NCBI RefSeq assembly: GCF_026210795.1
Contig: NC_089432.1
Span: 744,001-808,000 of the forward strand
Reading direction: 5' to 3'
Origin: Rhizophagus irregularis
Taxonomy: Eukaryota > Glomeromycota > Glomeromycetes > Glomerales > Glomeraceae
DNA length: 64,000 nt
Of this stretch, positions 6,394 through 59,151 are shown in pieces; position 1 is the first letter of the stretch, and each line of letters starts with the position of its first letter. A model generated the notes under the pieces. That model worked only from the letters and a program-made list of their open reading frames with translations. It made no database searches and was not told the DNA's origin. The translations under genes and the position numbers were made by a program.

Positions 6394-6769
6394 ACCGGCA
6401 ACAAAATATCAAGTTGTTTGGCACGTGTTTCTCCAAAAATTTGATATGTTATAGTATGTTTTTTTATTAAATAGAATTAATAATAATAATTTACATGTTA
6501 AAAAAAATAATCATTATGAGATTATGAGATCAGATACTGTAATATCATTGACTTATATGAGTAATAATACAAACTAACATATTTTATTAATACGCAGTAT
6601 ATTATAATCATTAATATAAATTAATTAAATAAGTTTTATAACTTAATAAAGAAATGCATTACAAATTTTTTTTTAAAAAAAAACTAAATAAGTTCTATAA
6701 CTGGTATTTATAAGTATATAAATTTGTTATACCTACCTCTGCAAATTTTTCCATATAACTTATGATTGT
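6394..6769. other. AT-rich spacer at the 3' end of the giant Sel1-kinase gene
   Basis: No gene is recognised. This is the likely 3' untranslated and termination region of the minus-strand gene ending at 6770; several AATAAA-like words occur but none can be singled out as the poly(A) signal. Confidence 0.4.
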
Positions 6770-9700
6770 TCAAATCTTGTTCCAGTCAACTAAATATAAT
6801 AAAGTATAAAATATCTTTAATTCAATATCATATTTTAGTAAGTAAAGAATTATAAACTTACCAATCAAATTTGAAGAGAATTTATGATATTCCGAAGGTT
6901 CGGTACTAGTATGCGATTCAGAAATTAAATTACCATCCATTCTTTCAAATTCATCCAATATTTCATTAATAGTTGGTCTTAATCTAGGTTCTTGACTCCA
7001 ACATTTTGTATAAAGTTTCTCATATTTTTCAGGAGTATTGGGAACTAACTTTTCACGAGTATTATTATTAACAATAGAAGCAGCAAGTGCCATTTTATCA
7101 TCAATATGTTTAAATGGAGGATGACCACTAGAAATTTCCCACATTAATACACCAAAGCTATAGATGTCTGAAGATTTAGTATATGGGGATTCTGGATTTT
7201 TAAGATGTTCTGGTCCCATATAAGAAATAATACCAAAATTACCAATATAAGCTGAAGTTTGATTATTTTGATTTTTTGAAATACCAAAATCTGTGATTTT
7301 AGCATTATTTTCATGAATAACTATATTCTTAGAATGCTAAAAAAAAAAATAAATTACATAAATAAATTATTGCTGCTAGTACTAATATGATATTAAATAA
7401 TAAATACTAATACTTACAAGATCTCTATGTAAAATATTTACATGATGCAAATAATTTAATCCATCTGCAATTTGAAATGCTAATTTTTTCTTATCATTCC
7501 ATGTCAAATTATTAAAATTATTTTTGAGATAATTTTGAAGATCCCCATCATTAGCATACTGCATAATAAGAAGATATTCATTTGTTTTTGGATCTAAAAA
7601 TAATTTATAAGAAATTAAAAAAATAACAAAAAATGTAATGTAAAAAAAAAAAAGTTTCAAATTACCTAAACTAATACCAAAGCAACGTATAATTCTTTCA
7701 CTATAATCAAGTTGCATATGCATTTTTAGTTCATGAGTAAATGCATCTAACAAATCATTCTTAATATAAGTTGTGTTAGTTAATTTTTTACAAACAACAT
7801 AATTATTAGTTTTAGTCCAAATTGCTTTAGATATTATTCCAAACCTTCCTGCATCAAGTGGTTCCACATTTTTTAATTCTTTATAAGATATAAGTTTAAC
7901 TTTTTCATATTTTAAAGCATTTTCAATCCATTTATTTGCGCCTAAACTTCCTTTTTCTACTCTTTTAAACGGGCTTTTTAAAACTTCTTTCACCCCTTTA
8001 CCAATCTTATAAAAGAATCCAGGTCTATATTGTGCATTGCTAAATCTTTGTTGAACCGCTTTTTGATACCAATAAGAGGCTTTAACTTCATCTTTTTTAA
8101 CACCAATTCCTTCTTTATAACAAACCCATAAATTAAATTGTGCTTCTTTATCTCCATTTTCTGCTGCTTTTTTATACCAATAGAAAGCTTTTTCTAAATT
8201 CTTTTCTATTCCTATTCCATTTGTATAACATATAGCTAAATTAAACATTGCATAAGTATTACCATTTTCTGCTGCTTTTTGATACCAATGAAATGCTTTT
8301 TCTAAATTCTTTTCTGTTCCTTCTCCATTATAATAACATATGGCTAAACTATTCATAGCAACTTCATTACTATTTTCTGCTGCTTTTTGATACCAATAGA
8401 AGGCTTTTTCTAAATTCTTTTCTGTTCCTTCTCCATAGTAATAATATATGGCTAAACTATTCATTGCAGCTTCATTACCATTTTCTGCTGCTTTTTGATA
8501 CCAATAGAAGGCTTTTTTTAAATTCTTTTCTGTTCCTTCTCCATTGTAATAACATATAGCTAAATTATTCATTTCATTTTTATTGCCATTTACTGCTGTT
8601 TTTTGATACCAATAGAAGGCTTTATCTAAATTCTTTTCTGTTCCTTTTCCATTTTTATAGAATATAGCTAAACTATTCATTGCATAAGTATTACCATTTT
8701 CTGCTGCTTTTTGATACCAATAGAAAGCTTTTTCTAAATTCTTTTCTGTTCCTTCTCCATTTTCATGACATATGGCTAAACTATTCATTGCTTTTTTATC
8801 TCCATTTTCTGCTGCTTTTTGATACCAATAGAAAGCTTTTTCTAAATTCTTTTCTATTCCTTCTCCATTTTTATAACATATGGCTAAACTATTCATTGCT
8901 TTTTTATCTCCATTTTCTGCTGCTTTTAGATACCAATAGAAAGCTTTTTCTAAATTCTTTTCTATTCCTTCTCCATTTTTATAACATATGGCTAAATTAT
9001 TCATTGCAGTTTCATTGTCATCTTCTGCTGCTTTTTGAAACCAATGAAATGCTTTTTCTAAATTCTTTTCTGTTCCTTCTCCATTTTCATGACATATGGC
9101 TAAATTATTCATTGCCTTTTTATTGCCGTTTTCTGCTGATTTTTGAAACCAATAGAAGGCTTTTTCTAGATTCTTTTCTGTTCCTTCTCCATTTTCATGA
9201 CATATAGCTAAATTATTCATTGCATTTTTATCTCCATTTTCTGCTGCTTTTTGATACCAATGAAATGCTTTTTCTAAATTCTTTTCTGTTCCTTCTCCAT
9301 TTTTAAAACATATCATGGCTAAATTAGTCATTGCATTTTTATTGCCATTTTCTGCTGCTTTTTGAAACCAATAGAAGGCTTTTTCTAAATTCTTTTCTGT
9401 TCCTTCTCCATTGTAATAACATATGGCTAAACTATTCATTGCAACTTCATTACTATTTTCTGCTGCTTTTTGATACCAATAGAAGGCTTTTTCTAAATTC
9501 TTTTCTGTCCCTTCTCCATTATAATAATATATGGCTAAACTATTCATTGCAGCTTCATTACCATTTTCTGCTGCTTTTTGATACCAATAGAAGGCTTTTT
9601 CTAAATTCTTTTCTGTCCCTTCTCCATTTTCATGACATATGGCTAAACTATTCATTGCTTTTTTATCTCCATATTCTGCTGCTTTTTGATACCAATAGAA

Positions 9701-12700
9701 GGCTTTTTCTAAATTTTTTTCTGTTCCTTCTCCATTTTTATAACATATGGCTAAATTATTCATTGCAACTTCATTACTATTTTCTGCTCCTTTTTGAAAC
9801 CAATGAAATGCTTTTTCTAAATTCTTTTCTGTTCCTTCTCCATTTTCATGACATATGGCTAAATTATTCATTGCTTTTTTATTGCCATTTTCTGCTGATT
9901 TTTGAAACCAATAGAAGGCTTTTTCTAGATTCTTTTCTGTTCCTTCTCCATTTTCATGACATATGGCTAAATTATTCATTGCATTTTTATCTCCATTTTC
10001 TGCTGCTTTTTGATACCAATGGAATGCTTTTTCTAAATTCTTTTCTGTTCCCATTCCATTTTTATAACATATCATGGCTAAACTAGTCATTGCATTTTTA
10101 TTGCCATTTTCTGCTGCTTTTTGAAACCAATAGAAGGCTTTTTCTAAATTCTTTTCTGCTCCTTCTCCATTGTAATAACATATGGCTAAACTATTCATTG
10201 CAACTTCATTACTATTTTCTGCTGCTTTTTGATACCAATAGAAGGCTTTTTCTAAATTCTTTTCTGTCCCTTCTCCATAGTAATAATATATGGCTAAACT
10301 ATTCATTGCAGCTTCATTACCAATTTCTGCTGCTTTTTGATACCAATAGAAGGCTTTTTTTAAATTCTTTTCTGTTCCTTCTCCATTGTAATAACATATA
10401 GCTAAATTATTCATTTCATTTTTATTGCCATTTACTGCTGTTTTTTGGTACCAATAGAAGGCTTTTTCTAAATTCTTTTCTGTTCCTTTTCCATTTTTAT
10501 AACATATAGCTAAACTATTCATTGCATAAGTATTACCATTTTCTGCTGCTTTTTGATACCAATAGAAGGCTTTTTCTAAATTCTTTTCTGTCCCTTCTCC
10601 ATTTTCATGACATATGGCTAAACTAGTCATTGCTTTTTTATCCCCATTTTCTGCTGCTTTTTGATACCAATAGTAGGCTTTTTCTAAATTTTTTTCTGTT
10701 CCTTCTCCATTTTTATAACATATGGCTAAACTATTCATTGCAGTTTCATTGTCATTTTCTGCTGCTTTTTGAAACCAATGAAATGCTTTTTCTAAATTCT
10801 TTTCTGTTCCTTCTCCATTGTAATAATATATGGCTAAACTATTCATTGCAACTTCATTACTATTTTCTGCTGCTTTTTGGTACCAATAGAAGGCTTTTTC
10901 TAAATTCTTTTCCGTTCCTTCTCCATTTTCATGACATATGGCTAAATTATTCATTGCTTTTTTATTGCCATTTTCTGCTGATTTTTGAAACCAATAGAAG
11001 GCTTTTTCTAAATTCTTTTCTGTTCCTTCTCCATTTTCATGACATATGCCTAAATTATTCATTGCATTTTTATCTCCATTTTCTGCTGCTTTTTGATACC
11101 AATAAAATGCTTTTTCTAAATTCTTTTCTGTTCCTTCTCCATTTTTATAACATATCATGGCTAAACTAGTCATTGCATTTTTATTGCCATTTTCTGCTGC
11201 TTTTTGAAACCAATAGAAGGCTTTTTCTAAATTCTTTTCTGCTCCTTCTCCATTTTTATAACATATGGCTAAATTAAACATTGCATAAGTATTACCATTC
11301 TCTGCTGCTTTTTGATACCAATGAAATGCTTTTTCTAAATTCTTTTCTGTTCCTTCTCCATTGTAATAATATATGGCTAAACTATTCATTGCAACTCCAT
11401 TACTATTTTCTGCTGCTTTTTGACACCAATGAAATGCTTTTTCTAAATTCTTTTCTGTTCCTTCTCCATTTTTATAACATATGGCTAAACTATTCATTGC
11501 AACTTCATTACTATTTTCTGCTGCTTTTTTTTGATACCAATAAAAGGCTTTTTCTAAATTCTTTTCTGTTCCTTCTCCATTGTAATAACAAATGGCTAAA
11601 TTATTCATTGCATCTTTATTGTCATTTTCTGCTGCTTTTTGATACCAATAGAAGGCTTTTTCTAAATTCTTTTCTATTCCTTCTCCATTGTAATAACATA
11701 TGGCTAAATTATTCATTGCAATTTCATTACCATTTTCTGCTGATTTTTGATACCAATGAAATGCTTTTTCTAAATTCTTTTCTGTTCCTTCTCCATTTTT
11801 ATAACATACGGCTAAACCAGTCATTGCATCAATCTGATCCTTTTCTGCTGACTTTTGATACCAATAGAAGGCTTTTTCTGAATTCTTTTCTGTTCCTTCT
11901 CCATTTTTATTACAAATGGCTAAATTATTCATTGCATCTTTATTGTTATTTTCTGCTGCTTTTTGATACCAATAAAAGGCTTTTTCTAAATTCTTTTCTG
12001 TTCCTTTTCCATTTTCATAACATATGGCTAAATTATTCATTGCAATTTCATTACCATTTTCTGCTGATTTTTGATACCAATGAAATGCTTTTTCTAAATT
12101 CTTTTCTGTTCCTTCTCCATTGTAATAACATATGGCTAAACCAGTCATTGCATCAATCTGATTTTTTTCTGCTGCTTTTTGATACCAATAGAAGGCTTTT
12201 TCTAAGTTCATTTCTGTTCCTTCTCCATTGTAATAACATATGGCTAAATTATTCATTGCATTTTTATTGTCATTTTCTGCTGCTTTTTGATACCAATAGA
12301 AGGCTTTTTCTAAATTCTTTTCTGTTCCTTCTCCATTGTAATAACATATAGCTAAATTATATATTCCATTTTTATTGCCATTTTCTGCTGCTTTTTTATA
12401 CCAATAAAAGGCTTTTTCTAAATTCTTTTCTGTTCCTTCTACATTTTTATAACATCTGGCTAAACTATTCATTGCATTAATATGACCATTTTCTGCTGCT
12501 TTTTGATACCAATAAAAGGCTTTTTCTAAATTCTTTTCTCCATTTTCATAACATATGGCTAAATTATTCATTGCAATTACATTACCATTTTCTGCTGATT
12601 TTTGATACCAATAAAAGGCTTTTTCTAAATTCTTTTCTGTTCCTTCTCCATTGTAATAACATATGGCTAAATTATTCATTGCTTTTTTATTGCCATTTTC

Positions 12701-12997
12701 TGCTGCTTTTTGATACCAATGAAATGCTTTTTCTAAGTTTTTTTCTGTTCCTTCTCCATTGTAATAACATATGGCTAAGCTATTCATTGCAACTTCATTG
12801 CCATTTTCTGCTGCTTTTTGATACCAATGAAATGCTTTTTCTAAATTCTTTTCTGTTCCTTCTCCATTGTAATAACATATGGCTAAATTATACATTGCAA
12901 CTTCTTCACCATTTTCTGCTGCTTTTTTATTTTGATGAAATAATTCAGTTTCATTTTTTACACTATTAATTACATTTTTGAATTTTTCTTCAGACAT
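6770..12997 (-). CDS. Giant Sel1-repeat protein with C-terminal TKL-type protein kinase domain
   Basis: Proposed exons on the minus strand: 12997-7666, 7593-7418, 7336-6862 and 6789-6770, joined in frame to give about 2000 aa. Introns begin GTAATT, GTAAGT and GTAAGT and all end in AG. The ATG at 12997 is the first Met and leads straight into the repeats. After a short N-terminus come about 44 Sel1-like units of 36 residues (consensus GEGTEKNLEKAFYWYQKAAE), residues about 45-1660. The kinase domain follows: AGRFGIIS near residue 1712, VVCKKL with the ATP-binding Lys, HRDLHSKN near 1833 (joined across intron 2), DFG near 1853, GPE near 1878 and DIYSFGVLMWEISSG. All catalytic residues are present, so it is probably an active Ser/Thr or dual-specificity kinase. 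Sel1 repeats form a TPR-like superhelix for protein binding, so a scaffold-kinase is inferred. The last exon (VDWNKI) is the least certain. Confidence 0.8.
8005..12930 (-). repeat. Coding tandem repeat of about 108 bp (Sel1 array) with higher-order duplications
   Basis: About 45 units of 108 bp encode the Sel1 superhelix. Units 16, 26 and 33 share an extra Met codon (LAMICY; CATATCATGG on the plus strand at 11151, 10068 and 9309). The marker spacings are exactly 1083 and 759 bp, i.e. ten and seven units. Units 16-25 and 33-42 match in order, and units 26-32 are a shortened version, so a ten-unit cassette appears three times. Unit 13 has an extra Lys codon within an A-run, and unit 4 is two to three codons short. 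Confidence 0.85.
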
Positions 12998-13990
12998 TTT
13001 TAGTTAAAATTTTTTTTTTTTTTTTTGCTTACAAAAAATTACGGTGAAAATCTGGCATCTCTAATTATAAACAAAAAAAAAACTAAGAAAGACGAAATAC
13101 TGAAAGTTGAAAACATTTATGTTTGTTGGCGTTATTAATTACACTAGATCAACAGTTTGTGTAATTTAGTTCTTATTATGTTTTCTAAAATGGATGTCGC
13201 ACAAAAAAACGAACAGACAAATGATCAGCGATCACATGATATTAGACCAATCAAATGGTTTATTGTGCACAATAAATTACCTGCCGATCAAGAACTCACG
13301 TGACATTACTTCTGGAAGGACGAAGAGATTTAAAAAGCATAGGATACGTGAAACAATTAAAAGTCAAATATTGCTATAGATATAAAAAAAATTCGGTTTA
13401 CTAAAGCCTACGAACAAGTATTTACGCGAGAAGGCTCCGACAATGTCGTTAGTAAAAATGGTCAGAATATTTTTTAGAATATTTGACTCTAGTTAGTAAT
13501 TAATATTTTTCCTGATACACGATTTTTTGCCTGATACACAATTTATTATAACCATTTTTTAATTATAAAATCACATGATACCGGATAAAATGATGATATT
13601 TGTACGAAAATATTTAATCGGCAAATCAGGCTTAATAATTTCATAACATTTTCTTTAAAGATATATTTTAATTCTATTTTCATTAAGATTATTTGTATAA
13701 ATTTATATTCTAATGTAAAAAAAAATTTCAAGTTCAGTGATTCTTTTAAAACTATTAAAACAATTAATAAAACTCTGCGTATAAAACCAAATTTATTCTA
13801 ACATTAAAAGAAGTTATATTATTTTAATGATGCATTAAAAATTCGTTATTTGCAGAATTTTAATTTGTATATTCAATAAGCAAAATTCTATATCAGTTTC
13901 CAAATGAAATTAGTTAGTAACTAGGTGTAACCCGTCGCGTTGCGGCGGGAATGATACTTGCCCATCAAGTAAGAGAGTAATAAAGAGAGT
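12998..13990. other. Upstream region of the giant gene and intergenic DNA
   Basis: No further gene is seen. A 16-T run lies just upstream of the start codon (about 13011-13026) and would be a poly-A tract in the minus-strand leader. At 13928-13955 is a G+C-rich phrase containing CCCGTCGCGTTGCGGCGGG, out of keeping with the AT-rich surroundings; it looks like the end of a dispersed repeat and directly precedes the CT-rich minisatellite. Short frames at 13194-13379 and 13546-13731 have no domain and were not called. Confidence 0.4.
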
Positions 13991-23874: not shown

Positions 23875-26093
23875 CCAATATTTCTGATATTGAGGATACG
23901 TTCATTATGTTTTAACAATATTATCTGATTATTGTGATTGAATTCCGAGGGTCCAGTGATGTTTTTTTGCTAAATTTGTAGTAATGCATAAGAAAAATAA
24001 TTAAAGAACGTTGATTTTTAAGTATTTCTTTTTCTTTTTTAACCCAATTTTATTAATTAATTATAATCGGGTTGGTTTTTTTTTAAACCGAAAAAACTTT
24101 CAAAATTTTTTTTTCGGTTTTTTTTAACCTAATTCCTGTTGATGAAATTTTAATGCTATTTTTTTTTTTTTTGCTAATTACTTAAAAGTTTAATTTGTCT
24201 TATTAATCATATTTTATTTTTTTCCAAACAAAAAAAAATGTTTTTCAAACCAAAATATTTTTTTTTTAGATAGTTCTATTTACTTATTAATTATTAAATA
24301 TTAACATTAATATATGCATCTTTAAGTGCAAAAGCTACTGAACATTTATATAATCAATTTTTTTTAGTTTAGCAAGTGTAATAAGAGATAAGAAATAAAA
24401 ACGTTAGGGAACTTCTTATATATTTAAAGTGTCATAGGTAGTACAAAAGGATACGAAAGGGTCAAATTTTACTGTCTACTAAATTAGTAAAATTTCATAC
24501 ATAAATAAAAAACTTCTATTTGGCTTTTAGACGTAATCTCATTATAATTGTAAATAAAAAAAAACTTATAAAATGAAATAAATTGATAATGTAGTATTTG
24601 CGTAAATTTTCTTAAATACGGATTATTTTATTTTATAATATTTTAAAACATTCAATTTTTTATTTTGGATTTTAATTTAATTACTTTCCATTACTTTGTA
24701 TAGTTGTATAAGGATTTTAAATTAATAGGTATATAGCAATCATGTATGGTATGGTAAGGAACTCTTTCAACTACTTATAACTTTTGAGAAAATAACATAT
24801 CTACGAGAGTGAATAAACAGTTGATGATGTCAGAAATGCGTAAACTTCTCTGTCTATTTTTTTCGTTCTGAAAATTTTTTGGACTGATGATTGATGTATA
24901 GAGTTTTACTAAAAAGTTGTTTTTGACCGGTTTTGTAAAAAAAAAAAGAAAAGAAAATACCCAAAAAGCTGGCAGCCTGGCATGGGCCAAGGTTTTTAAA
25001 AAGGCAAGTCTAGAAAGAAGCAACACAGGATAACAAATAATTAAACCAATTTTAACTTTTTTTATAGTCTTTGGATACTTGGACTTGAACTTTTCGGTCT
25101 TTTGGTGATTAATTAGTGATGGAACATGAGGTGATTGTTGTGGTACTGCAACGAATATTCACACCGTAGTATTACCTACAAGGATAATCATCCTTTGACA
25201 CCAGACCTATTGCATTTGCCAAAATAATAACTTCATTTCCGAGTTCATTAGTAAATACAAAAATAACAAAAATAAAACAAATTGGAAAATCCGCTCAAAT
25301 TTTTTTTTTTATTAAGATCAAATTTCTAAAATTAGTTGTTCATAATTATCACCAATCAAATAATTTAACCCAAATTTTTAATATCAACTTCATATCATCT
25401 ATATAATTAAAATCTATATAATTAAACAAGTGGCATTTTCGTTTCTTATGATGTAATATGTTCATAAACAAGTAGTAATAAATGACAGGAAAGTTGAAGT
25501 ATTAGTAGTTTATTGCGGAACATAGTTACTTTTGGGTTAACTTTATTGTTGTAAACAGGGACAGAAAAGTATAACAATTGTCAACAATGGAATTTGAAGG
25601 TATAAAAAACATGTAAAAGACATCAATATTAAGATATATTTTGTATAGAAAGGGTATATGGTGAAATGAGAAGGTTGGCCAAATAATAAATTAATTTTTT
25701 TTTTGTTTCGAAGTGCTATAATTATTTAAAAACAATATAAAAAAATAGTATAATAAAAATAATAAAAATAAGCAAACTAACTTTACTAATTAATATTATA
25801 TATAAAATAATTTCATTGGTGCCTAATAATTATCTAAGATGAAATGAATAATCAGTTACTGCAAATCTGCAATTTTGTAATAATTGAAATACATTCCGGT
25901 TATGCAACATTTGTTTGTCATATATGCAATGATGCAATGCTTGTACTTGTGAACAACGCTTTTGCACATAATGCATTTTGCATAAATATTATTACCATAT
26001 TTATTCATACAAATAGGGGCTTTTAATAATAATAATAAAAAAAAAAGATATTTACTTTATCCTTTTCAATTAGGGAGAATTTTTGATATAGCA
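23875..26093. other. AT-rich intergenic region upstream of the microexon kinase gene
   Basis: No stand-alone gene is recognised. Possible extra 5' exons of the next gene lie here: an ATG at 25587 reading MEFE next to a GTATAA donor at 25600, and an acceptor at 26072-26073 opening a frame (GRIFDIA) that runs into the ATG at 26094. Both keep the same codon phase. Frames at 24775-25026 and 25844-26026 have no domain. Confidence 0.35.
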
Positions 26094-29000
26094 ATGGACC
26101 AATGTATTGGTAAAGGTAAAGTATATAACATGAATAATAATATAAATTAGAATTATTCAAAATTATTAAACCAAATTTGCAATATAACAAAACTAGTTTC
26201 TAGTAATATTGAAGAATTTGAGGAAAGTGGTACTGAAGAATTTGAAGGAAGTGGCACTGAAGAATTTGAAAGTAGTAGTATTGATGAATTTGAAGGAAGT
26301 TACACCAAGGAATCTGAAGGTATATCAAACAAACTGAAATTTAAGTTTTTATTTATAAACAATTCAAATACTACAAATATAATTTAGACTAACTATATTA
26401 TATAAAAATTATATTAAATATTTAGCTCGTAAGTTAATATAATTGAATAATAATGAATTACTCATTATTTTATTGTATTCCACATAACTAAATAATTTAT
26501 TCGATGATTAATGATGATGTAGTTAGTAAGTTATCAGTTATTTAAATCTTTAGTCCTTTACTTTATTTATTCTACATATATAACATTCAAATAACTAAAT
26601 TCTTTGCTTAAATAACTATTTAATAATTAATTATATTATTACAGTTGGTAAGTTACAACATATATATTATATTTATTTGTTTAATATTTTACATAATTCA
26701 ACTAATTATATTCTTAATTTAAATAACTAGATTGTAAGTAATATATATAATTTACAGCAAATAATGTTATATTATCTTTATATCCAACTAATTAATAATA
26801 ATTAACAATACTACAGGGTGTAAGTTATATGATATTTATATTTGTATTATTTATAAAATTTAACTAATTCTTTATTTAAAAAATTATTAAATAATATAGG
26901 GGGTAAGTTATTTATTTACTTATAATATTTACATATAATTTAAACTAACTAATTTCTTTATTTAAAAATTATTAGATAATATAGCTCGTAAGTTATTTAT
27001 TTAATTCTATTATTACTTATTGTTATAATATTTTCATATAATTTAAAATAACTAATTTCTTTATTTAATAATATAGCTCGTAAGTTATTTATTTAATTCT
27101 ATTATTACTTATTGTTATAATATTTACATATAGTCTAAACTAACTAATTTCTTTATTTAAAAAATTATTTAATAATATAGTTCGTAAGTTATTTATTTAA
27201 TTCTATTATTACTTATTGTTACAATAATTTAAACTAACTAATTTCTTATTTAAAAAATTATTTAATAATATAGCTCGTAAGTTATTTATTTAATTCTATT
27301 ATTACTTATTGTTATAATATTTACATATAATTTAAACTAACTAATTTCTTTATTTAAATATTATAGGGTGTAAGTTATTCATTTAATTCTATTATTAAAT
27401 AATTTAAACTAACTAATTTCTTTATTTAAAAATATTATTAAATAATATAGTTTGTAAGTTATTTATCTAATTCTATTATTACTTATTGTTATAATATTTA
27501 CATATAATTTAAACTAACTAATTTCTTTATTTAAAAAATTATTTTATAGATGGTAGGTTATTTATTTAATTCTATTACAGTATTACTTATTGTTATAATA
27601 TTTACATATAATTTAAACTAACTAATTTCTTTATTTAAAAAAATTATTAAATAATATAGGGTGTAAGTTATTTATTTAATTCTATTATTACTTATTGTTA
27701 TAATATTTACATATAATTTAAACTAATTATTTAAAATATTATTAAATAATTAAGTGGGGTGTAAGTTATTTATTTAATTCTATTATTACTTATTGTTATA
27801 ATAATTACATATAATTTAAACTAACTAATTTCTTTATTTAAAAAATTATTAAATAATATAGCTTGTAAGTTATTTATTTAATTCTATTATTGCTTATTGT
27901 TATAATAATTACATATAATTTAAACTAACTAATTTCTTTATTTAAAAAATTATTAAATAATATAGCTTGTAAGTTATTTATTTAATTCTATTATTACTTA
28001 TTGTTATAATATTTACATATAATTTAAACTAACTAATTTCTTTATTAAAAAATTATTAAATATTATAGACGGTAAGTTACTTATTTAATTCTATTATTAC
28101 TTAGTTATTGTTATAATATTTACATATAATTTAAACTAACTAATTTAAAAAATTATTTATGATCTAGTTTGTAAGTATCTCTACTGTTACATATTTTATG
28201 TAATATTTATTTGCTAACTGAATTCTTTCATTTAAAAAATATCTGTTACTTTACTAGTTGGTAAGTTGTAAATTGTAGGTTACCATATGTATTTATCTGA
28301 AAAATTAAGACTTATATTAATTAAATTTCTATTTAAATTTTAGAGTAAGTAATGATATATTTTGTGTGAATTATAATACAATCTATAATACAATTTTAAT
28401 TATTTATAGATTTGGAAAAAGTGGAAATGCAATTATAGATGATTTTATTCTTGAAAAAAAATTAAGATGGATTCCTTATAACAAATTTAAAAATGTTGAA
28501 TATCTTACTGAAGGAGGATTTGGTACTATATATAAAGCTATTTGGTTAAAGAATAATAGAGATGGAGATGAAGTAATTCTTAAATGTCACAAGAATTTAA
28601 ATGAAAATTTAAATGAATTTTTAAAAGAAGTATGATAGTATATTATTTTCTATTTTTAATTTGAATTAAAATTTATCTATATTAATAAATTATTATTATT
28701 ATTTATAGTGGGAATATCATACAAGTGTTTTAACTTCAAGAGAAATTATAAATGTTTATGGATTCACAAAAGATCCAAATACTTCAAAATATATGGTTGT
28801 AATGGAGTATGCAAATAAAGGTAATTTAAGAGAAAATTTAGCAAGAATAGTCAAAAATAATTGGAATCAAAAATTATATATGTTGTACGAAATTATTTCT
28901 GGACTTAGTGAGATACATGAAAAAAAACTTATTCATTGTGATTTTCATGATGGTAATATTTTAAATCATAATGATGAGAATGAGGATAAAATTTATATTA

Positions 29001-29741
29001 GTGATTTAGGATTATGTCAACCTGTAAAATCATTTTTGAAAGAGCATAATATTTATGGTGTTGTACCATTTATGGCTCCTGAAGTTTTAAGAGGCAAATC
29101 TTATACCCCAGCTAGTGATATATATAGTTTTTCCATGATTATGTGGGAGTTTACATCTGGAATATCACCATTTAATAATAGAGCACATGATATTCAACTT
29201 AGTTTAAGTATTTGTAAAGGTGAACGTCCTGAAATTATTGAAAATACTCCACAATGTTATGTAGATTTAATGAAAAAATGTTGGAATGGAGATCCATTAA
29301 AAAGGCCATCTACTTCAGAAGTGAAAAAAGTTATTTGTAATTGGATTTTCAGTCCTGATTATGATCAAATTGATCAAATTAATGAAGAATTAAAAAACAA
29401 CATTATGGAATTTATAAATGCACCAATTGGGCATAACAATCTTGCTACTAAATCTCATCCTAAAGCATGTTTTACAAGTCGCTTACTTGATTTTACTAGT
29501 AAAAAATTGAATGAAATTCTTGAAAGTGAAGATTCACAAGCATATCATACAAGTCATTCAGATTTGAATGATTGTGTGATTAAAGATTTGAGGTCATTAG
29601 GTATGTACTATGATATATAAAAAAATTAATCTTGCAAATTATTTATATGAAAATTAATTGATCTATTTAATTATTAAAACAGATGAGAATACTAATAAAA
29701 AGTTGAATGAAATTTTTGAAAGTGAAGATTCAAGTTATTAG
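26094..29741 (+). CDS. TKL-type protein kinase with a 5' array of one-codon exons
   Basis: Proposed model: exon 26094-26109 (MDQCI); exon 26197-26319, encoding an acidic repeat of the type SGTEEFEG; about 20 tiny exons of 3 nt (one of 6) between 26426 and 28260; a 1-nt exon at 28344; then kinase exons 28410-28629, 28709-29600 and 29683-29741. Every junction is AG/GT and the total is 1374 nt, 457 codons plus stop, without an internal stop. The kinase exons alone are certain: SGNAIIDDFI, GGFGTIYKAIW (nucleotide loop), VILKC (Lys), HCDFHDGNIL (catalytic Asp kept, Arg of HRD replaced by Cys), DLG in place of DFG, MAPEVL and DIYSFSMIMWEFTSG. In the related kinase at 55284 the same SGN...DEFI segment is preceded by a zinc ribbon; here the acidic exon and tiny exons take that place. 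The 3' exon ends SEDSSY. The 5' model is inference. Confidence 0.75.
26320..28409 (+). repeat. Tandem array of about 22 introns separated by 1-6 nt exons
   Basis: Units of about 84-122 bp repeat. In the best-conserved part (26880-28140) each reads GTAAGTTATTTATTTAATTC, a middle part, then ACTAACTAATTTCTTTATTT and finally AATAATATAG. That is a donor, a branch-like ACTAAC and an acceptor. Between acceptor and next donor stand, at the positions given: CTC 26426, TTA 26523, TTG 26645, ATT 26731, GGT 26817, GGG 26900, CTC 26985, CTC 27077, TTC 27181, CTC 27274, GGT 27367, TTT 27451, ATG 27550, GGT 27660, TGGGGT 27755, CTT 27862, CTT 27966, ACG 28069, TTT 28168, TTG 28258, A 28344. The first few and last units are more divergent than the middle ones. 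The donor after 27552 is GTAGGT. Confidence 0.85.
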
Positions 29742-29988
29742 TGTAAAAGTTAGTAAGTGAATAATTATATAATTAAGGATCTGGGTCATTAGGTATGTAC
29801 TATGATGTATAAAAGAATTAATCTTGCAAATTATTTATGTGAAATTAATTTTATTTAATATTTAATTATTTAGATATTAAAGCGGATGAAAATTAACTAA
29901 TGATTGTTTGTTTTTAAAAAATTTAAAGTGACATTTGATATTGCACATTCAAAAAAAATTGTTTTTATTTTATTCTTTTAAATTTCAG
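29742..29988 (+). repeat. Duplicated copy of the kinase gene's last intron and exon
   Basis: From about 29757 to 29895 the sequence repeats the end of the gene just upstream: GAATAATTATATAATTAAGG, then TCATTAGGTATGTACTATGA, then GTATAAAAGAATTAATCTTG, like the segment at about 29568-29630 that holds the last donor, and an acceptor plus ATGAAAA like the last exon. It lies beyond the stop codon and would be untranslated. It shows tandem duplication of the gene's 3' end. Confidence 0.6.
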
Positions 29989-30185
29989 TTATTTAAACAC
30001 TAAGGCTAGAGTAGTAAAATATTTTACAGGTTTCTTAGTTTGTAATTTAAATAATTCTTTTTTTTTGCTTATGTATTTATTTATATTCACCATTTTTTAT
30101 TATACTTAGAATTATTTAAACACTAGAGTTAGAGTACTAGTAAAATATTTTACAAGATTCTTAGTTTGTAATTTAAATAAATCTT
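29989..30185 (+). repeat. Two copies of a 3'-flank repeat shared with the right-edge kinase gene
   Basis: Copies at 29989-30062 and 30111-30185 contain ATTTAAACACTA, GTAAAATATTTTACA and TTCTTAGTTTGTAATTTAAAT. Two inverted copies stand at 63404-63591, downstream of the minus-strand kinase gene at the right edge. The position after the stop codon in both loci suggests the 3' untranslated or flanking region was copied together with the kinase genes. The inner palindrome AAAATATTTT could form a small hairpin. Confidence 0.75.
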
Positions 30186-33468: not shown

Positions 33469-35824
33469 TTACATTTCGAATAAAAAAATCAATTTTCTTA
33501 ATTTTTTTAATTTAATTTGAGCGTATGTAAATTTTTGTTTAGCAGATTTCTCATACCAATAAATCGCTTGATTTATATCCTTTTCATTTCCCCTTCCGTA
33601 TTCGTACATAAGAGCAAGATTATGTTGAGCATACTTATCTCCCGCATTTGCTGCCTTGTAATATAATTCAAAAGCTTTGTCATAATTTTTTTCAACACTT
33701 GCTCCAATATAATACATATTGCCAAGATTATTTTGAGCATTACTATTTCCTAAATTTGCTGCCTTGTGATATAATTCAAAGGCTTTGTTATAATCTTTAT
33801 AAACTCCTTTTCCTTTATAATACATATTGCCAAGATTATTTTGAGCATCACCATTTCCTAAATTCGCTGCTTGTTGATAAAATTCAACTGCTTTTTGCTT
33901 ATCAACTATAGTTCCAAAACCCTTTCGATAGAAATAACCAATCTTTGATAATCCTGAAGCATAACCCATATTAGCAATTTTTTCGTAACTTATAAAAGCT
34001 AATTTTTCATCTTTTACAGTTCCACGACCAGTTTCATAACACAATCCAGCATAAAATTGTGCTAATATATGACCTTTCCCTGATGCATTAATAAATAAAT
34101 CAAATGCTTTCTTATCATCTTCAATTGTTTCAATCCCTAAATAATTAAAATATCCAAGTAAGAATATAAAATCTAAATTATTTTGATTAGTTAATAATAA
34201 ATAGTAAATTTCTTGTGAATTTATATTATTATCAAAATAATCAAGAATATCTTTATTATTTTTGTCAATCGTTGATTTTTTTCCTTCATTAATTATTTTG
34301 AAAATGTAATTTATTGTATTGTTAACTATTTTATTTAAATTTTTTTCATTTTCATTTGTTAATGATGTAGGTACTATTTCTCTTGTGTTCATTTTATCAA
34401 AATTTTGTATAATTTGAGATATTTCCCCATGTAATGAATTATCAATATTTGATAAAGTATCAATATTAGTTGGATTAAAATTTAGTTCCACTGTTGATGT
34501 TAACATTGTTTGATGATTTTCCATCAATGTGTTTGTTTTTGTCATAGTTGTCTTTAGTCTTTCTACTACTTGATTTATGGTTGGGCGTTTATCTGGCTCA
34601 CCATTCCAACATTCTAAAAAAAGTACATTGTAATAATGAGAGTTTGTTGAAAATTTTATTTTCTAAATAAATATATTACATACCAGTATAAATTTCAACA
34701 TAATCTTTAGGTGTATCGGGAGCGGGTTCTTCTCTAAGACCCTGTGAAATTTCTAAAGCCAAATCAATATCATACTGTTCACTTTTATAATAAAAAGGAG
34801 GTCGGCCACTAGATATCTCCCAGAATAATACACCAACACTATAGATATCACTTTTTTCATTTAACGAAAATACTTGTGTTGAGGCTTGATTTTCTCTTTG
34901 TCCATTAAATCTTTTTGGATCAACGTAAGGAATTATTCCAAAAAGTTTTGATTGTGTGTTGGATGATGATTCAATTCTCTTTGACAACCCAAAGTCGGAT
35001 AATTTGATAATATTTCGATGAACCAATACATTACCCGAGTGCTATAAATGCGTTATGATATTAAAAAATATGGAAAAAAAAATTTTACAATAATACTAAC
35101 AATACTTTTATAGTTAATAAAATAAATTACCAAATCACGATGCACTATTCCTTCATTATGTAAACATGACACGGCACAGGCTAATTGGTATGCAAAGTTA
35201 TATTTATCGTTCCATGTAAGATTATTGAAGTTTTCCTTTAAATAATCTTTAAGAGGACCAGAATCAGCATACTCCATCACTAGTAGCAAATAATTATTTG
35301 ATTGAGAATTTTGGTTTTCTAATTATAAATAATAAAATAAAAAGAAATAATCATTTTTTTTTATTAAAATATATTTTAAAAATCACATATTAAACATACA
35401 AAAATATTAATAAATTTACTATACCTGGATCAAATTTTGCAATTCCATAGAATTTAATAATGTTATTATGTAATTGTATATCACGTTGAAGTTTAAGCTA
35501 GAATATCAATATTATAAATACTATAAACTTTAAATGAACAAAATTTCATATTATGAATATTAAAATGTTTATTATGATGATTATCTCATAATTTCATACC
35601 TCATGAACGATTTCTTTTGCAATGACGTCATCGACGTCATCAAGATTAAAAAAAGATTTCAACGCAAAATATTGAGAATTTTTCCAACTCGCACGATAAA
35701 CTTTTCCGAATCCTCCAGTTCCAACTTTTTGGATATTACTAAAATGTTTTTGTTCATAAAGTCTATAATATTCTCTAGAAATAGCTTCTTCAATCGTATT
35801 CACCCATTTGTTTGTGTTATTCAT
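33469..35824 (-). CDS. TKL-type protein kinase with C-terminal Sel1 repeats (662 aa)
   Basis: Exons on the minus strand: 35824-35600, 35497-35425, 35318-35131, 35041-34684 and 34613-33469. Every junction is GT-AG and the joined frame is exactly 663 codons. The kinase domain comes first: VGTGGFGKVY near residue 35, FALKSF with the ATP-binding Lys, VMEYADSG, HRDLHSGN near residue 160 (joined across an intron exactly as in the gene at 6770-12997), DFGLS near 180, DIYSVGVLFWEISSG, and ECWNGEPDKRPT at the end. After a linker with Asn-rich helices come about six Sel1 units (residues about 430-650), for example GNGDAQNNLGNMYYKGKGV. All catalytic motifs are intact, so it is probably active. The domain order is the reverse of the two giant genes. 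The C-terminal exon is closely related to the stand-alone proteins at 59152 and 61379. Confidence 0.88.
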
Positions 35825-39126: not shown

Positions 39127-42100
39127 TTAATCTTCAATCATACAATCAAGACTTTGAGACCCTTCTTCTAAAATTTCGTTAAGTCCGCGACTTGTATAAT
39201 GTGCTTGTGAATGATATTGCATAATAGAAGTACCTGCTTGTTCTTGCACTAAAGCTTTGTCTGCTTCTACAAATTCCAACATATCATTTTTTAATCGATT
39301 ATCAATATCAGATACTTCATACTCATAATTACCATCCTTGTTTATCTCATAATATTTATTAATACATCTAATCCATTCAGATATAATTATTTCAAGCACT
39401 ATTATGGTTGGTCTATTGGATGGATCTGAATCCCAACATTTTTTCATTAAATCTATATAACACTTGGGTGTAGTTTTTATAATTTCAGGTCGTTCCCCTC
39501 TACTACAAATATCCAAGGTAAGGTGATGATCATGTGCTTTATAATTAAATGGAGGAATACCTGATGTAAATTCCCACATTATCATTGAAAAGCTATAAAT
39601 ATCACTTGCTGTAGTATAGGCTTTTTTTCTTAATAATTCGGGCGCCATATAAGGTAAAACTCCATAAATTTTATTCACTTTATTATCAGAATATTGTAAA
39701 TCACTTATAGGTTTACATAATCCTAAATCAATAATAAATAACTCATAATTATCTGATATTAAAATATTACCATCATGGAAATCACCATGAGTTAAATTTG
39801 ATTCATGGATTACTTTAAGTCCTAATATAATTTTTTTCAACAATTGTAACTTTTCTTGCCACTTAAGTTTAATTATATCAGATAAACATTTTCTCAAACT
39901 TCCTTTTTTTGCATAACTCATTATTATTATATAATTTAAATTTTTCGGATCTTGGGTAATTCCAAAAAATTGAGTAAATTTTGAAAATGATTTCTTCTGA
40001 CAATTATAATGATATTTCCACTATATATATATAATAAAAAAGATTATTAAATTTTTGAAAAAGAAATAGAGTATTGCTAATATCACCGTTGGCGATTGTT
40101 ACCTTACCAAAATTAGGGTGGCAGAATTAAAAATTTCATGAAACTCCACCCACTAATTCTGGTACAGTGATGATCATCCATCGGTGATATTTAGGCAATT
40201 TTCAACTATTAAATATAAATACTATACCTCATCCAGAAATTTGCTATTTAAACCTGATGAATTATTAAGTGATTTGAGAATAACTTCATAATCTGTTTGT
40301 CTGTTCCATTGTTGTTTGTCAAAATTCCAACTATAAATAGGTCCATCTGACCAGATAGCTTTATGAATTTCACTGAATCCTCCTTTATCATAATAATTAA
40401 TATTTGACAACTTATTATAAGGTATCCACTCTAAAATTTCATAACTATTTTTAGCATTTAGTTGTGCTTCTTGAATAAATTTATCAATAAATTCATTTTT
40501 ACTAGTCCACTTTGAAAAATCTTGTTGGAATTGTTTAGTATTACATTGTTGGCACCACTGGTAATCAGTATATGGTTGTTTGCACTCATTACATAATTCA
40601 GCTTCATTTTTAGGGTTCATTTTGTTATTTTCTGCAGCTTTTTGATGCCAATAAAAAGCCTTTTCAAAATTCTTTTCTATTCCTTCTCCATTATTGTAAC
40701 TATTGGCCAAATTAATCATTGCTTCAGTATAACCATATTCTGCTGCTTGTTGATACCAATAAAATGCTTCTTTTAAATTCTTTTCTGTTCCTTCTCCATT
40801 TTTATAACATATACCTAAACTATTCATTGCTTCTTTACCACCATTTTCTGCTGCTTTTTGGTACCAATAAAATGCTTCTTCTAAATTCCTTTCTGTTCCT
40901 TCTCCATTTTTATAACATATGGCTAAACTATTCATTGCTTCTTTGTCATCGTTTTTCGCTGCTTTTTGATACCAATAAAATGCTTTTTCTAAATTCTTTT
41001 CTGTTCCTTCTCTATTTTTATAACATACAGCCAAACTATTCATTGCTTCTTTATCATTATTTTCTGCTGCTTTTTGATACCAACAAAATGCTTTTTCTAA
41101 ATTCTTTTCTGTTCCCTCTCCATTTTTATAACATACAGCTAAATTAAACATTGCTCCAATGTGATCTTCTTCTGCTGCTTTTTGATACCAATAAAAGACT
41201 TTTTCTAAATTTCTTTCAGTACCTTCTCCAAGTTCATAACATATAGCTAAAGTATACATTGCTTCAATATAATTTTTTTCTGCTGCTTTTTGATACCAAT
41301 AAAGGGCTTTTTCTAAATTCTTTTCTGTTCCTTCTCCATTTCCATAACATATGGCTAGATTAAACATTGCTTCTTTAACACCATTTTCTGCTGCTTTTTG
41401 ATACCAATAAAAAGCTTTTTCTAAAATTTTTTCTGTTCCTTCTCCAATTTCATAACATATAGCTAAACTATTCATTGCTTTAATATGACCATTTTCTGCT
41501 GCTTTTTGGTACCAATTAAAGGTTTTTTCTAAATTTTTTTCTGTTCCTTTTCCATTTTCATAACATATAGCTAGATTAAACATTGCTTCAATATAATCTT
41601 CTTCTGCTGCTTTTTGATACCAGCAAAATGCTTTTTCTAAATTCTTTTCTGTTCCTTTTCCATTTTCATAACGTATGGAAAGATTAAACATTGCTTCTTT
41701 AATGCCATTTTCTGCTGCTTTTTGATACCAATAAAGGGCTTTTTCTAAATTCTTTTCTGTTCCTTTTCCATTTTCATAACATATGGCTAGATTAAACATT
41801 GCTTCTTTAATACCATTTTCTGCCCCTTCTTGATACCAAGAAATGGCTTTTCCTAAATTCTTTTCTGTTCCTTCCCCAATTTCATAACATATGGCTAGAT
41901 TAAACATTGCCTTAATGTGACCATTTTCTGCTGCTTTTTGATACCAATAAAAAGCTTTTTCTAAAATTTTTTCTGTCCCTTCTCCATTTTTATAGCATCT
42001 ACCTAAACTATTCATTGCTTCTTTATCACCATTTTCTGCTACTTTTTGATACCAATAAAAGGCTTTTTCTAAATTCTTTTCTGTTCCTTTTCCATTTCCA

Positions 42101-45100
42101 TAACATATGGCTAGATTAAACATTGCTTCTTTAACACCATTTTCTGCTGCTTTTTGATACCAATGAAGGGCTTTTTCTAGGTACTTTTCTGTTCCTTCTC
42201 CAATTTCATAGCATATGGCTAGATTAAACATTGCTTTAATATGATCATTTTCTGCTGCTTTTTGATACCAATAAAAAGCTTTTTCTAAAATTTTTTCTGT
42301 CCCTTCTCCATTTTTATAGCATATGCCTAAACTATTCATTGCTTCTTTAACACCATTTTCTGCTGCTTTTTGGTACCAATAAAAGGCTTTTTCTAAATTC
42401 TTTTCTGTTCCTTTTCCATTTCCATAACATATAGCTAAACTATTCATTGCTTTAAGATGAACATTTTCTGCTGCATTTTTATACCAATAAAGGGCTTTTT
42501 CTAAATTCTTTTCTGTTCCTTTTCCATTTTAATAACATATAGCTAGATTAAACATTGCTTCTTTTACACCATTTTCTGCTGCTTTTTGATACCAGCAAAA
42601 TGCTTCTCCTAAATTCTTTTCTACTCCTTTTCCATTTCCATAACATATAGCTAGATTAAACATTGCTTCTTTAACACCATTTTCTGCTGCTTTTTGATAC
42701 CAGTAAAATGCTTTTTCTAAATTCTTTTCTGTCTCTTCTCTATTTTTATAACATATGCCTAAACTATTCATTGCTTCTTTATCACCATTTTCTGCTGCTT
42801 TTTGGTACCAATAAAGGGCTTTTCCTAGATTCTTTTCTGTTCCTTCTCCAATTTCATAACATATGGCTAGATTAAACATTGCTTCTTCAATACCATTTTC
42901 TGCTGCTTTTTTATACCAACGAATGGCTTTTTTTAAATTCTTTTCTGTTCCTTCTCCATTTTCATAATATATAGCTAAACTATTCATTGCTTTAATATGA
43001 CCATTTTCTGCTGCCTTTTTATACCAATGAAAGGCTTTTTTAAAATTCTTTTCTATTCCTTCCCCAATTTCATAATATATAGCTAAACTATTCATTGCTT
43101 CTTTAACACCATCTTCTGCTGCCTTTTTATACCAATGAAAAGCTTTTTCTAAATTCTTTTCTGTTCCTTCCCCAATTTCATAACATATAGCTAAACTATT
43201 CATTGCTTCTTTAACACCATCTTCTGCTGCTTTTTGGTACCAGTAAAATGCTTTTTCTAAATTCTTTTCTGTTCCTTTTCCATTTTCATAACATATGGCT
43301 AGATTAAATATTGCTTCTTTAACACCATTTTCTGCTGATTTTTTATACCAGCAAAATGCTTTTTCTAGATTCTTTTCTGTTCCTTTTCCATTTTCATAAC
43401 ATATGGATAAATTAAACATTGCTTCTTTATCATCATTTTCTGCTGCTTTTTGGTACCAATAAACTGCTTTTTCTAAATTCTTTTCTGTTCCTTTTCCATT
43501 TTTATAACACACAGCTAGATTAAACATTGCTTTAATGTGACCATTTTCTGCTGCTTTTTGATACCAATGAAGAGATTTTTTAAAACTCTTTTCTGTTCCT
43601 TCCCCAATTTTATAACATATGGCTAAAATATTCATTGCTTCTTTATCATCATTTTCTGCTGCTTGTTGATACCAATAAACTGCTTTTTTTAAATTCTTTT
43701 CTGTTCCTTTTCCATTTTTATAACATACAGCTAGATTAAACATTGCTTCATTAACACCATTTTCTGCTGCTTTTTGGTACCAGCAAAATGCTTTTTCTAA
43801 ATTCTTTTCTGTTCCTTTTCCATTTTCATAATATATGGATAGATTAAACATTGCTTCTTTAACACCATTTTCTGCTGCTTTTTGGTACCAGCAAAATGCT
43901 TTGTCTAAATTCTTTTCTGTTCCTTTTCCATTTTCATAACATAAGCCTAAAATATTCATTGCTGCTTTGTTATCATTTACTGCTGCTTTTTGATACCAGC
44001 AAAATGCTTCTTCTAAATTCTTTTCTGTTCCTTTTCCATTTTCATAACATATGCCTAAACTATTCATTGCTTCTTTATCATCATTTTCTGCTGCATTTTT
44101 ATACCAATAAAATGCTTTTTCTAAATTTTTTTCTGTTCCTTCTCCATTTTCATAACATATGGCAAGGTTAAACATTGCTTCCTTAATACCATTTTCTGCT
44201 GCATTTTGATACCAGCAAAATGCTTTTCCTAAATTCTTTTCTGTTCCTTTTCCATTTTCATAATATATGGATAGATTAAACATTGCTTCTTTAACACCAT
44301 TTTCTGCTGCTTTTTTATACCAACGAAAGGCTTTTTTTAAATTCTTTTCTGTTCCCTTTCCAATTTCATAATATATAGCTAAACTATTCATTGCTTTAAT
44401 ATGACCATTTTCTGCTGCCTTTTTATACCAATGAAAGGATTTTTTTAAATTCTTTGCTGTTCCTTCCCCAATTTCATAATATATAGCTAAACTATTCATT
44501 GCTTTAATATGACCATTTTCTGCTGCCTTTTTATACCAATGAAAGGCTTTTTTTAAATCCTTTTCTATTCCTTCCCCAATTTCATAACATATAGCTAAAC
44601 TATTCATTGCTTCTTCAACACCATTTTCTGCTGCTTTTTGGTACCAATAAAAGGCTTTTTCTAAATTCTTTTCTGTTCCTTTTCCATTTTCATAACATAT
44701 GGATAGATTAAACATTGCTTCTTTGGCACCATTTTCTGCTGCTTTTTGATACCAGCAAAATGCTTTTTCTAAATTCTTTTCTGTCCCTTTTCCATTTTCA
44801 TAACATATTGCTAAACTACACATTGCTTCTTTATCAATGTTTTTTGCTGCTTTTTGATACCAATAAAATGCTTTTTCTAAATTCTGTTCTGTTCCTTTTC
44901 CATTTTCATAACATATGGCTAGGTTAAACATTGCTTCTTTAATACCATTTTCTGCTGCTTTTTGGTACCAGCAAAATGCTTTTTCTAAATTCTTTTCTGT
45001 TCCTTTTCCATTTTCATAACATATGCCTAAACTATTCATTGCTTCAATATCATTTTCTGCTGCTTTTTGATACCAGCAAAATGCTTTTCCTAAATTATTT

Positions 45101-45597
45101 TCCGTTCCTTCCCCAATTTCATAACATATGGCTAGATTAAACATTGCTTTAATGTGACTATTTTCTGCTGCTTTTTGATACCAATAAAAGGCTTTTTCTA
45201 AATTCTTTTCTGTTCCTTCTCCATTTTCATAACATATGGCTAGATTAAACATTGCTTCTTTAACACCATTTTCTGCTGCTTTTTGATACCAATAAAGTGC
45301 TTTTTCTAAATTCTTTTCTGTTCCCTTTCCATTATAATAGCAAATTGCTAAATTAAACATTGCTTCAATATGACCATTTTCCACTGCTTTTTGATACCAA
45401 TAAAAGGCATTTTTTAAGTTTTTTTCTGTTTCTTCTCCAGTTATATAATTATTGGCTGAATTAAACATTATTGCTTTATCACATTTCTTACACCATAGTT
45501 CTTTGGTAAAATGTTTATTGCAATATGAACAATTTTTGGAATTTACGTTATTGGTATTTTTATTCAAGATACTTGATTTACTAAATCTGGTTTCCAT
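39127..45597 (-). CDS. Giant zinc-ribbon/Sel1/zinc-ribbon/TKL-kinase gene, interrupted by one stop codon
   Basis: Exons on the minus strand: 45597-40228 and 40020-39127, 2088 codons in one frame apart from a TAA at 42531-42529. There the repeat context (TAT, stop, AAT against TAT GAA AAT in sister units) shows that a Glu codon is mutated. Domains in order: a CSYC...WCKKC ribbon near residue 23, about 44 Sel1 units of 36 residues, a second ribbon CNECKQPYTDYQWCQQC near 1653 followed by the FIDKFIQEAQL segment, then the kinase. Kinase motifs are GGFSEIHKAIW (third Gly of the loop replaced), VILKS (Lys), HGDFHDGN (catalytic Asp kept), DLG, MAPELL and DIYSFSMIMWEF; it ends SLDCMIED. Upstream of the stop a 1022-residue Sel1 protein without kinase could be made. 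Whether the stop is a real mutation or a read error cannot be told here. Confidence 0.78.
40070..40202. mobile_element. MITE, family 1 copy 2, inside the kinase intron
   Basis: The left end reads GTATTGCTAATATCACCG and the right end in reverse complement AAATTGCCTAAATATCACCG. The imperfect inverted arms are about 50 bp and include TTACCTTACCAAAATTAGGG against its partner near CCACTAATTCTGGTAC. The element sits in the intron 40227-40021 of the giant kinase gene. Without it the intron would be about 74 nt, the normal size in this window, so insertion into a pre-existing intron is the simplest reading. Confidence 0.8.
40660..45460 (-). repeat. Coding tandem repeat of about 108 bp (second Sel1 array)
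   Basis: Forty-four full units and one partial unit of 36 codons, consensus GKGTEKNLEKAFYWYQKAAE then NGxKEAMFNLAICYEN. Blocks recur, for example the three-unit run ending KEAMNSLG, IKAMFNLAICYEI and KEAMFNLAICYGN around 41870-42400. The units differ from those of the 6770-12997 gene at the variable positions (KEAM/IKAM here, NEVAM/NKNAM there), so the two arrays expanded separately. Confidence 0.85.
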
Positions 45598-59003: not shown

Positions 59004-59151
59004 ATGATACACAATGATATAATGATCGACATGTTATTCATGAATGAAATTTTACTGTACTACTGTACTACTACACTTGTAAAACCAGGTTTACTTTTTT
59101 TTTTCATTATTATTATTATTCATAATTTCTACAATTGCTGATAACATCGAA

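Follow-up and report, generated by a model that had tools for sequence, protein, structure and literature searches.

Tandem arrays of predicted one-codon microexons leading into kinase genes of Rhizophagus irregularis carry a sequence signature of diversifying selection

Introduction

Splicing can include exons of only 1 or 3 nt, as described for APC11 of Arabidopsis (PMC4674806), CYP621A of Fusarium (PMC12940212) and hth of Drosophila (PMC7392893), and for the 1-nt exon of APC11, intron definition combined with recursive splicing was proposed (PMC4674806). Ratchet points, in the parts of PMC8605326 and PMC6224609 consulted, lie within long introns and work by 0-nt splicing or through RS-exons. 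Runs of short exons characterize the MEG genes of Schistosoma mansoni; according to sections of PMC10526429, they have exons of 6-81 bp, mostly 15 bp (3-81 bp in the abstract), introns of 0.1-5 kb and 10-20 exons, and their products are secreted. For the Podospora genes hnwd, het-d and het-e, excerpts of PMC1805685 and PMC2873952 describe repeat exchange within and between family members with concerted evolution, and a few codons per WD-repeat unit are under diversifying selection.

The arrays described here were found in a 64-kb window (the whole stretch of DNA analysed) of Rhizophagus irregularis and at further loci of its genome. As far as the excerpts allow comparison, they resemble the MEG genes in having runs of very short, mostly multiple-of-three predicted exons, in forming a multi-chromosome gene family and in their diversification. 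However, the predicted exons of R. irregularis are nearly all 3 nt, the near-identical introns between them measure about 100 nt, as many as about 50 units stand in tandem, and the arrays lead into a kinase; the exon and intron sizes are not of the Schistosoma type. As in recursive splicing, an acceptor adjoins a donor, and stepwise removal would be possible, whereas each array step, unlike a ratchet point, would leave a kept, selected codon. The APC11, CYP621A and hth microexons, as described, are single, whereas the predicted ones of R. irregularis stand in tandem hypervariable arrays. As in hnwd, units are common to several genes and codon positions appear to be under diversifying selection. 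The hnwd unit, however, is a WD40 repeat within one protein domain, whereas in R. irregularis each unit combines an intron with one codon, with the result that the homogenised DNA would be spliced out and only the selected codon would enter the protein. Introners are mobile introns scattered through genes. The arrays share with them the presence of many near-identical introns per genome, but the sampled R. irregularis units are in tandem, spaced by 3 nt and belong to one gene family. Among the published open-access papers listed for microexons, recursive splicing and Rhizophagus kinases or splicing, no such arrays appeared in titles or abstract openings, and the passages of PMC10234402 that were searched do not mention them.

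Results

The region 26320-28409 of the window (forward strand) consists of 22 intron-like units with 21 inserts between them, extending from 26426 to 28344. Nineteen inserts are 3 nt long, one is 6 nt and one is 1 nt, and 29 of their 64 nt in total are G or C; our recount of units, insert lengths, G+C and codon phases reproduced exactly the figures that the sequence-only reading had given. Donors are GTAAGT in 20 of 21 cases and GTAGGT in the remaining one. When the whole 64 kb was searched for AG-NNN-GTA[AG]GT, 19 copies on the forward strand fell within 26320-28409, only 2 lay outside it on that strand, and 1 was present on the reverse strand. This is the anatomy of the array as observed, and we infer that the inserts are exons. 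Rfam gave zero matches over 25500-30000.

In the gene model, all on the forward strand, predicted exon 1 (26094-26115) carries the start codon (MDQCIGK...) and ends in codon phase 1; the public relatives P0008 and P0002 start with MDQCIGK or MGQCICK. Predicted exon 2 (26197-26319) encodes acidic 24-nt repeats (EEFEGSGT...) and also ends in phase 1, at the donor GTATATCAAAC; its counterpart was read in other arrays too. The predicted microexons begin with CTC (26426-26428), TTA (26523-26525) and TTG (26645-26647), followed by ATT (26731-26733) and GGT (26817-26819), which give the D and the W of a common DW. Hypervariable microexons 6-19 with their introns occupy 26900-28170, starting at 26900 (GGG), 26985 (CTC), 27077 (CTC), 27181 (TTC), 27274 (CTC), 27367 (GGT), 27451 (TTT), 27550 (ATG), 27660 (GGT), 27755 (the 6-nt TGGGGT, to 27760, microexon 15), 27862 (CTT), 27966 (CTT), 28069 (ACG) and 28168 (TTT). 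The conserved array end is TTG (28258-28260), followed by the 1-nt microexon A at 28344 with the donor GTAAGTAAT. Kinase exon 1 (28410-28629) starts FGKSGNAIIDDF... and encodes the glycine loop, kinase exon 2 (28709-29600) encodes HCD and DLG motifs as judged by eye, and the last predicted coding exon runs from 29683 to the stop at 29741, its end counted by eye. When 26094-26115, 26197-26319, the 21 inserts, 28410-28629, 28709-29600 and the sequence from 29683 onward are joined as predicted, acidic exon, inserts and kinase exon form one open frame of 459 aa. The array peptide in the predicted frame is ALIDWWAPLPRFYGLGSSYVFE, the same as previously read, and its frame continues open into the kinase. 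Note that two donors spaced by 4 nt follow the last microexon, at 28344-28353 (GTAAGTAAT); use of the second would give AGTAA instead of A. This second donor, with another frame upstream, is apparently used in several public models of relatives.

The predicted window protein contains a kinase domain (Pfam PK_Tyr_Ser-Thr, E 8.1e-44); Pfam matched four families, all kinase-type and none of them STAND NTPase or WD40. VILK, HCD and DLG motifs are present as judged by eye. Among solved relatives, an EGFR chain was best (6.6e-34, in two stretches), followed by RIPK1, CTR1, ROCO4 and MAP3K chains, and on the basis of this list we read the kinase as TKL-like. Elsewhere in the window, Sel1-repeat stretches lie at 7382-13003 and 40222-45597, both on the reverse strand and each of about 45 units of 108 nt (Pfam on parts). 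The ORF at 7382-13003 also contains part of a kinase domain, and an in-frame stop near 42528 divides the stretch at 40222-45597 into two ORFs. Further kinase fragments were found at 39127-40020 (reverse strand) and 55832-56725 (forward strand), and more Sel1 repeats at 33469-34662, 59083-59949 and 61370-62164, so that kinase and Sel1 genes are densely packed in the window.

We searched the R. irregularis genome (146.7 Mb, 32 contigs) for similar arrays. A 726-base array piece had 287 matches, which formed at least 36 clusters among the matches listed. The junction pattern ATAG-NNN-GTAAGTTATTTATTTAA (21 fixed bases) occurred in 1332 exact copies, and a reversed control in 0; further clusters of this pattern were present on contigs C1, C2 and C3 among the matches listed. 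For detailed analysis, 21 arrays were used, namely the window and 20 regions chosen by their similarity to it. They hold 710 units, 335 of which contain the exact junction pattern, and the genome total scaled from this fraction may be about 2800 units. Kinase genes with such arrays thus appear to number dozens. The array directly reaches a kinase exon starting TTTG in 19 of the 21 cases. In L032, a 528-bp insertion with inverted ends lies inside one array intron (about 6182-6709 of the oriented locus), after which the array resumes and then reaches the kinase exon, and in L036 the array is cut off. A shorter gene form without the acidic exon was found at L031, L034, L039, L041, L043, L048, L049 and L050, where, as read by eye, the array directly follows a tiny ATG exon (MDQHIK-like) that ends in phase 1. 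Lone junction-pattern matches among those listed (G000:C1:7918335, C2:1190480, C2:1846778, C2:3340634 and C2:6113023) may be solo introns of the array family in other genes, or worn-out arrays. In Rhizophagus diaphanus, the models of proteins P0004, P0081 and P0121 contain array-like peptides, which suggests that related arrays exist in that species.

Across the 21 arrays, the units have intron-like and exon-like properties. With a parser that tries a 3-nt insert first, 662 of 691 inserts were 3 nt long. Many inter-unit gaps contained junctions with GTACGT, GCAAGT, GTAAAT or similar donors, and the addition of 19 such hidden junctions, by a rule that admits 3 nt only, gave 681 of 710. The other 29 comprise 19 final 1-nt units and 10 non-terminal off-length inserts, which are spread over L034, L038, L039, L045, L048, L050 and the window; given that the assembly quality is stated as Q36 in a passage of PMC10234402, some of these may be sequencing errors. 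Nearest-AG parsing had also produced many 1-nt A inserts inside arrays, but these lie within ATATAGAGAGTAAGT and are now parsed as AGA preceded by ATATAG. Unparsed gaps longer than 150 nt number 13, in 9 arrays, and units may hide there. The 675 introns kept for statistics (within 50-140 nt) were 53-119 nt long with a median of 100, and their lengths modulo 3 were distributed 227/185/263. Insert length therefore keeps to a multiple of three under freely varying intron length. CTAAY was present in 586 of the 675 introns, with no AG between it and the acceptor in 579 of the 586. Donors over the 710 units were GTAAGT in 669 and others in 41, mostly near variants (GTACGT in 11, GCAAGT in 8).

The frame set by the upstream exon and required by the kinase exon is phase 1, in which the last base of one insert and the first two bases of the next would form a codon. 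In this phase, none of 638 codons across adjacent insert pairs was a stop. None of the 62 inserts starting with AG or AA followed a neighbour ending in T, compared with 180 of 576 other inserts. At distances of 2 to 8 inserts, on the other hand, the same combination occurred in 7/59, 18/55, 11/53, 11/50, 12/47, 12/45 and 8/43 cases (12-33%), and neighbours joined in reverse order gave 19 stops. When insert order was shuffled 2000 times, the mean was 14.5 stops and the minimum 4, as against the 0 observed. Order shuffles ignore tandem duplication, by which insert pairs become non-independent, and the reversed-order, skip-distance and distinct-pair controls were therefore added. Counting each distinct neighbour pair once per array left 474 pairs (Fisher p 1.8e-7), and counting globally distinct neighbour pairs left 230 (p 8.5e-5); an earlier version including gap-spanning pairs (p 6e-7 and 2.7e-4) was replaced by this neighbours-only test. 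A small sample of 20 adjacent pairs from arrays outside the 21 also contained 0 stops. The absence of stops between neighbours, as compared with their occurrence at distances of 2-8, indicates that selection sees codons joined successively and in order.

These distances bear on the proposal of the sequence-only reading that skipping of microexons might make many protein versions from one gene. Since nearly all microexons are 3 nt, combinatorial skipping would keep the frame, and joins at the single-skip distance, at 7/59, are intermediate, below the 27% base (p 0.008). This low count may stem from the repeat structure, or single skips may be tolerated to some extent, and it fits the absence of skipping imperfectly. 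However, skipped joins would often create stops, 72 of 293 when pooled over distances 3-8 versus 0 of 62 between neighbours, and the proposal is not supported; we consider combinatorial skipping unlikely.

As parsed, 15 of the 21 arrays read through into the kinase. L034, L039, L045 and L050 leave the frame; for L039, an insert of 6 nt, counted from the ATATAG before it, would restore read-through. The script was unable to trace L032 and L036, and L038 has an odd last junction. Note that for L035, L039, L040, L041, L048 and L049, in which the script detected no donor, the leading base was assumed to be G; inspection by eye confirmed G in L039, L040, L041, L048 and L049, and L035 has no visible leading exon.

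The array peptides have fixed ends and a variable middle. DW occurs within the first five residues in 16 of 19 translated arrays, and the last residues are FE in 15 and FK in 2 of the 18 arrays whose final unit is the 1-nt A. Among the inner residues (496 codons), R, Y, D, N, G and W are frequent. The inserts had been called hypervariable before, and this could now be measured. In 1125 pairs of units taken from different arrays and identical over 100 flanking bases, the inserts differed in 80%. Rates of change were estimated from a minimum spanning tree of 377 distinct units, in which single-step changes numbered 80 over 100 flank sites and 12, 2 and 14 at insert positions 1, 2 and 3. The per-site rates relative to the flank were 15, 2.5 and 17.5 for one-step edges and 9, 2.5 and 11.9 for edges of up to three steps. 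Without the splice-signal sites in the flank, they were 14.2, 2.4 and 16.5, and 8.6, 2.4 and 11.3, respectively. In phase 1, insert position 1 corresponds to codon position 2, insert position 3 to codon position 1 and insert position 2 to the wobble base. Changes at positions 1 and 3 together outnumbered those at position 2 by 26 to 2 (p 0.002) and by 58 to 7 (p 5e-5), although these p-values are only a guide, given that unit pairs share history and unit exchange can mimic insert change. Codon positions 1 and 2 thus change 9-17 times as fast as the flank and the wobble base about 2.5 times, a sequence signature that points to diversifying selection on the array codons. A targeted mutagenesis of the three bases between acceptor and donor, acting without selection, would equally let inserts differ between identical 100-base flanks in different arrays, as they do in 80% of the 1125 pairs. 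The middle base of the insert, however, changes at only about 2.5 times the flank rate as against 9-17 times for its neighbours; codon selection explains this slow wobble base and a blind mutator does not, so we regard such a process as quite unlikely.

Insert position 2 is T or G in 642 of 662 inserts over the 21 arrays, and phase-1 codons are therefore nearly all of the NNK kind, which covers all 20 residues and one stop. More A at this position (GAA) was seen in other arrays among the junction-pattern matches listed. We had considered the T/G preference as the mark of a special mutator and dropped this idea in favour of a wobble base left behind while codon positions 1 and 2 were selected; the rarity of A and C is explained partly, but not fully, in this way. 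Seven inserts have C at position 2, of which six sit at the fixed second or next-to-last unit. That all seven are silent in phase 1 was set aside as evidence, since it is built into the code, where T and C are alike in third position.

The second donor of the last microexon would allow translation in phase 0, in which each microexon is a whole codon and the last exon is AGTAA, formed via the donor 4 nt downstream. Fitting such whole-codon reading, the public proteins P0004, P0014, P0091, P0102 and P0110 hold strings like MIGGGGSILIGMGGIGMGG...LSK. Phase 0 contains just 2 stops in 662 codons, compared with 82 in 632 for phase 2, and variability is lowest at insert position 2, as expected of a second codon position. 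However, stop avoidance between neighbours is confined to phase 1, and the predicted start codon fixes phase 1 in the eight arrays of the shorter gene form. Furthermore, insert position 3, mostly silent in phase 0, changes 9-17 times faster than the intron, and the C at position 2 of the six fixed units would cause a Ser/Leu exchange in phase 0 but leave Phe or Leu unchanged in phase 1. Translation in phase 0 is accordingly judged very improbable, and phase 1 is the frame used below.

Public protein models were compared for 120 of 1397 relatives. Five sampled genes match R. irregularis DAOM proteins at 98.5-100% over long stretches, and in the models for L031, L033, L038, L043 and the window, two of which are partial records, the protein begins near the kinase exon or downstream of it. 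P0063, P0081 and P0121 contain short phase-1-like array strings. P0110, which is 89% identical to L049 over 311 residues and is probably the L049 gene, starts with an array-like peptide that disagrees with the L049 inserts in phase 1. The L033 array peptide was absent from the public proteins found (2 candidates checked). Given that the public models differ from one another in frame, and that several lack the array, they were not taken as evidence of transcripts. That the five models begin about or after the kinase exon, and that array units are tandem repeats, would also fit a non-coding satellite of tandem introns that is never spliced into the message, with the kinase transcribed from inside or below the array. 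Such a satellite is at odds with the insert length, the neighbour-only stop avoidance and the codon-position pattern, as well as with the common DW start, the FE end and the near-variant donors, and we consider it extremely unlikely.

Discussion

Our interpretation, which we hold to be highly probable from the pattern of sequence evolution, is that the arrays are serial one-codon microexons, spliced stepwise, which encode a hypervariable segment, possibly for recognition, at the N terminus of a kinase. Serial microexon splicing was the principal proposal of the sequence-only reading, and it is strongly supported by sequence evolution over the 21 arrays, given the neighbour-only stop avoidance, the insert length, the frame fixed by the start codon and the rates at the three codon positions.

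The array would then be a coding sequence divided into one codon per exon, and intron definition would act on each of the 20-50 near-identical introns, about 100 nt long, in the pre-mRNA. Acceptor and donor are juxtaposed as AG-NNN-GTAAGT in hundreds of units. Exon definition is very unlikely for 3-nt exons, and intron definition with stepwise joining is likely. In each splicing step, the upstream exon would gain 3 nt (1 nt in the last step), and the next GTAAGTTA donor would then abut it, so that the chain could work in order, as a recursive splicing that leaves one codon per step. A chain of recursive splice points, the other possibility raised for this array, is thus plausible as the splicing route. 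Codons would be split in phase 1, the last base of one microexon being joined to the first two of the next. The product would be a kinase with an N-terminal segment of 20-50 residues, fixed at its ends (DW ... FE-FGKSGN) and hypervariable in between.

Tandem duplication and exchange of whole units would shuffle single codons and leave frame and splice sites intact, and new codons would be kept by diversifying selection. By analogy, such duplication and exchange follow the logic described for Podospora het-d and het-e in passages of PMC1805685, with a far smaller unit. As splicing would remove the homogenised intron spacers, recombination could shuffle individual residues of a recognition surface. 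The suggestion that the array segment is a variable recognition surface, e.g., for self/non-self or for a partner, is drawn solely from diversifying selection, and we would put it at somewhat below an even chance. With the same reserve, and tentatively, the arrays may represent a diversity-generating architecture in which duplication, exchange and selection all act on the single codon; it would provide dozens of intracellular kinases with a recognition surface and might be the self/non-self system of arbuscular mycorrhizal fungi.

On this interpretation, current annotation would miss the variable part of the array kinases. If transcripts confirm the predicted joins, the spliceosome of R. irregularis would join 20-50 consecutive one-codon exons, beyond the microexon runs in the literature surveyed, which would bear on minimal exon size and on splicing fidelity. 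If the interpretation is true, a protein segment would be evolvable residue by residue through recombination between introns, and the array kinases would be a candidate for variable recognition in arbuscular mycorrhizal fungi.
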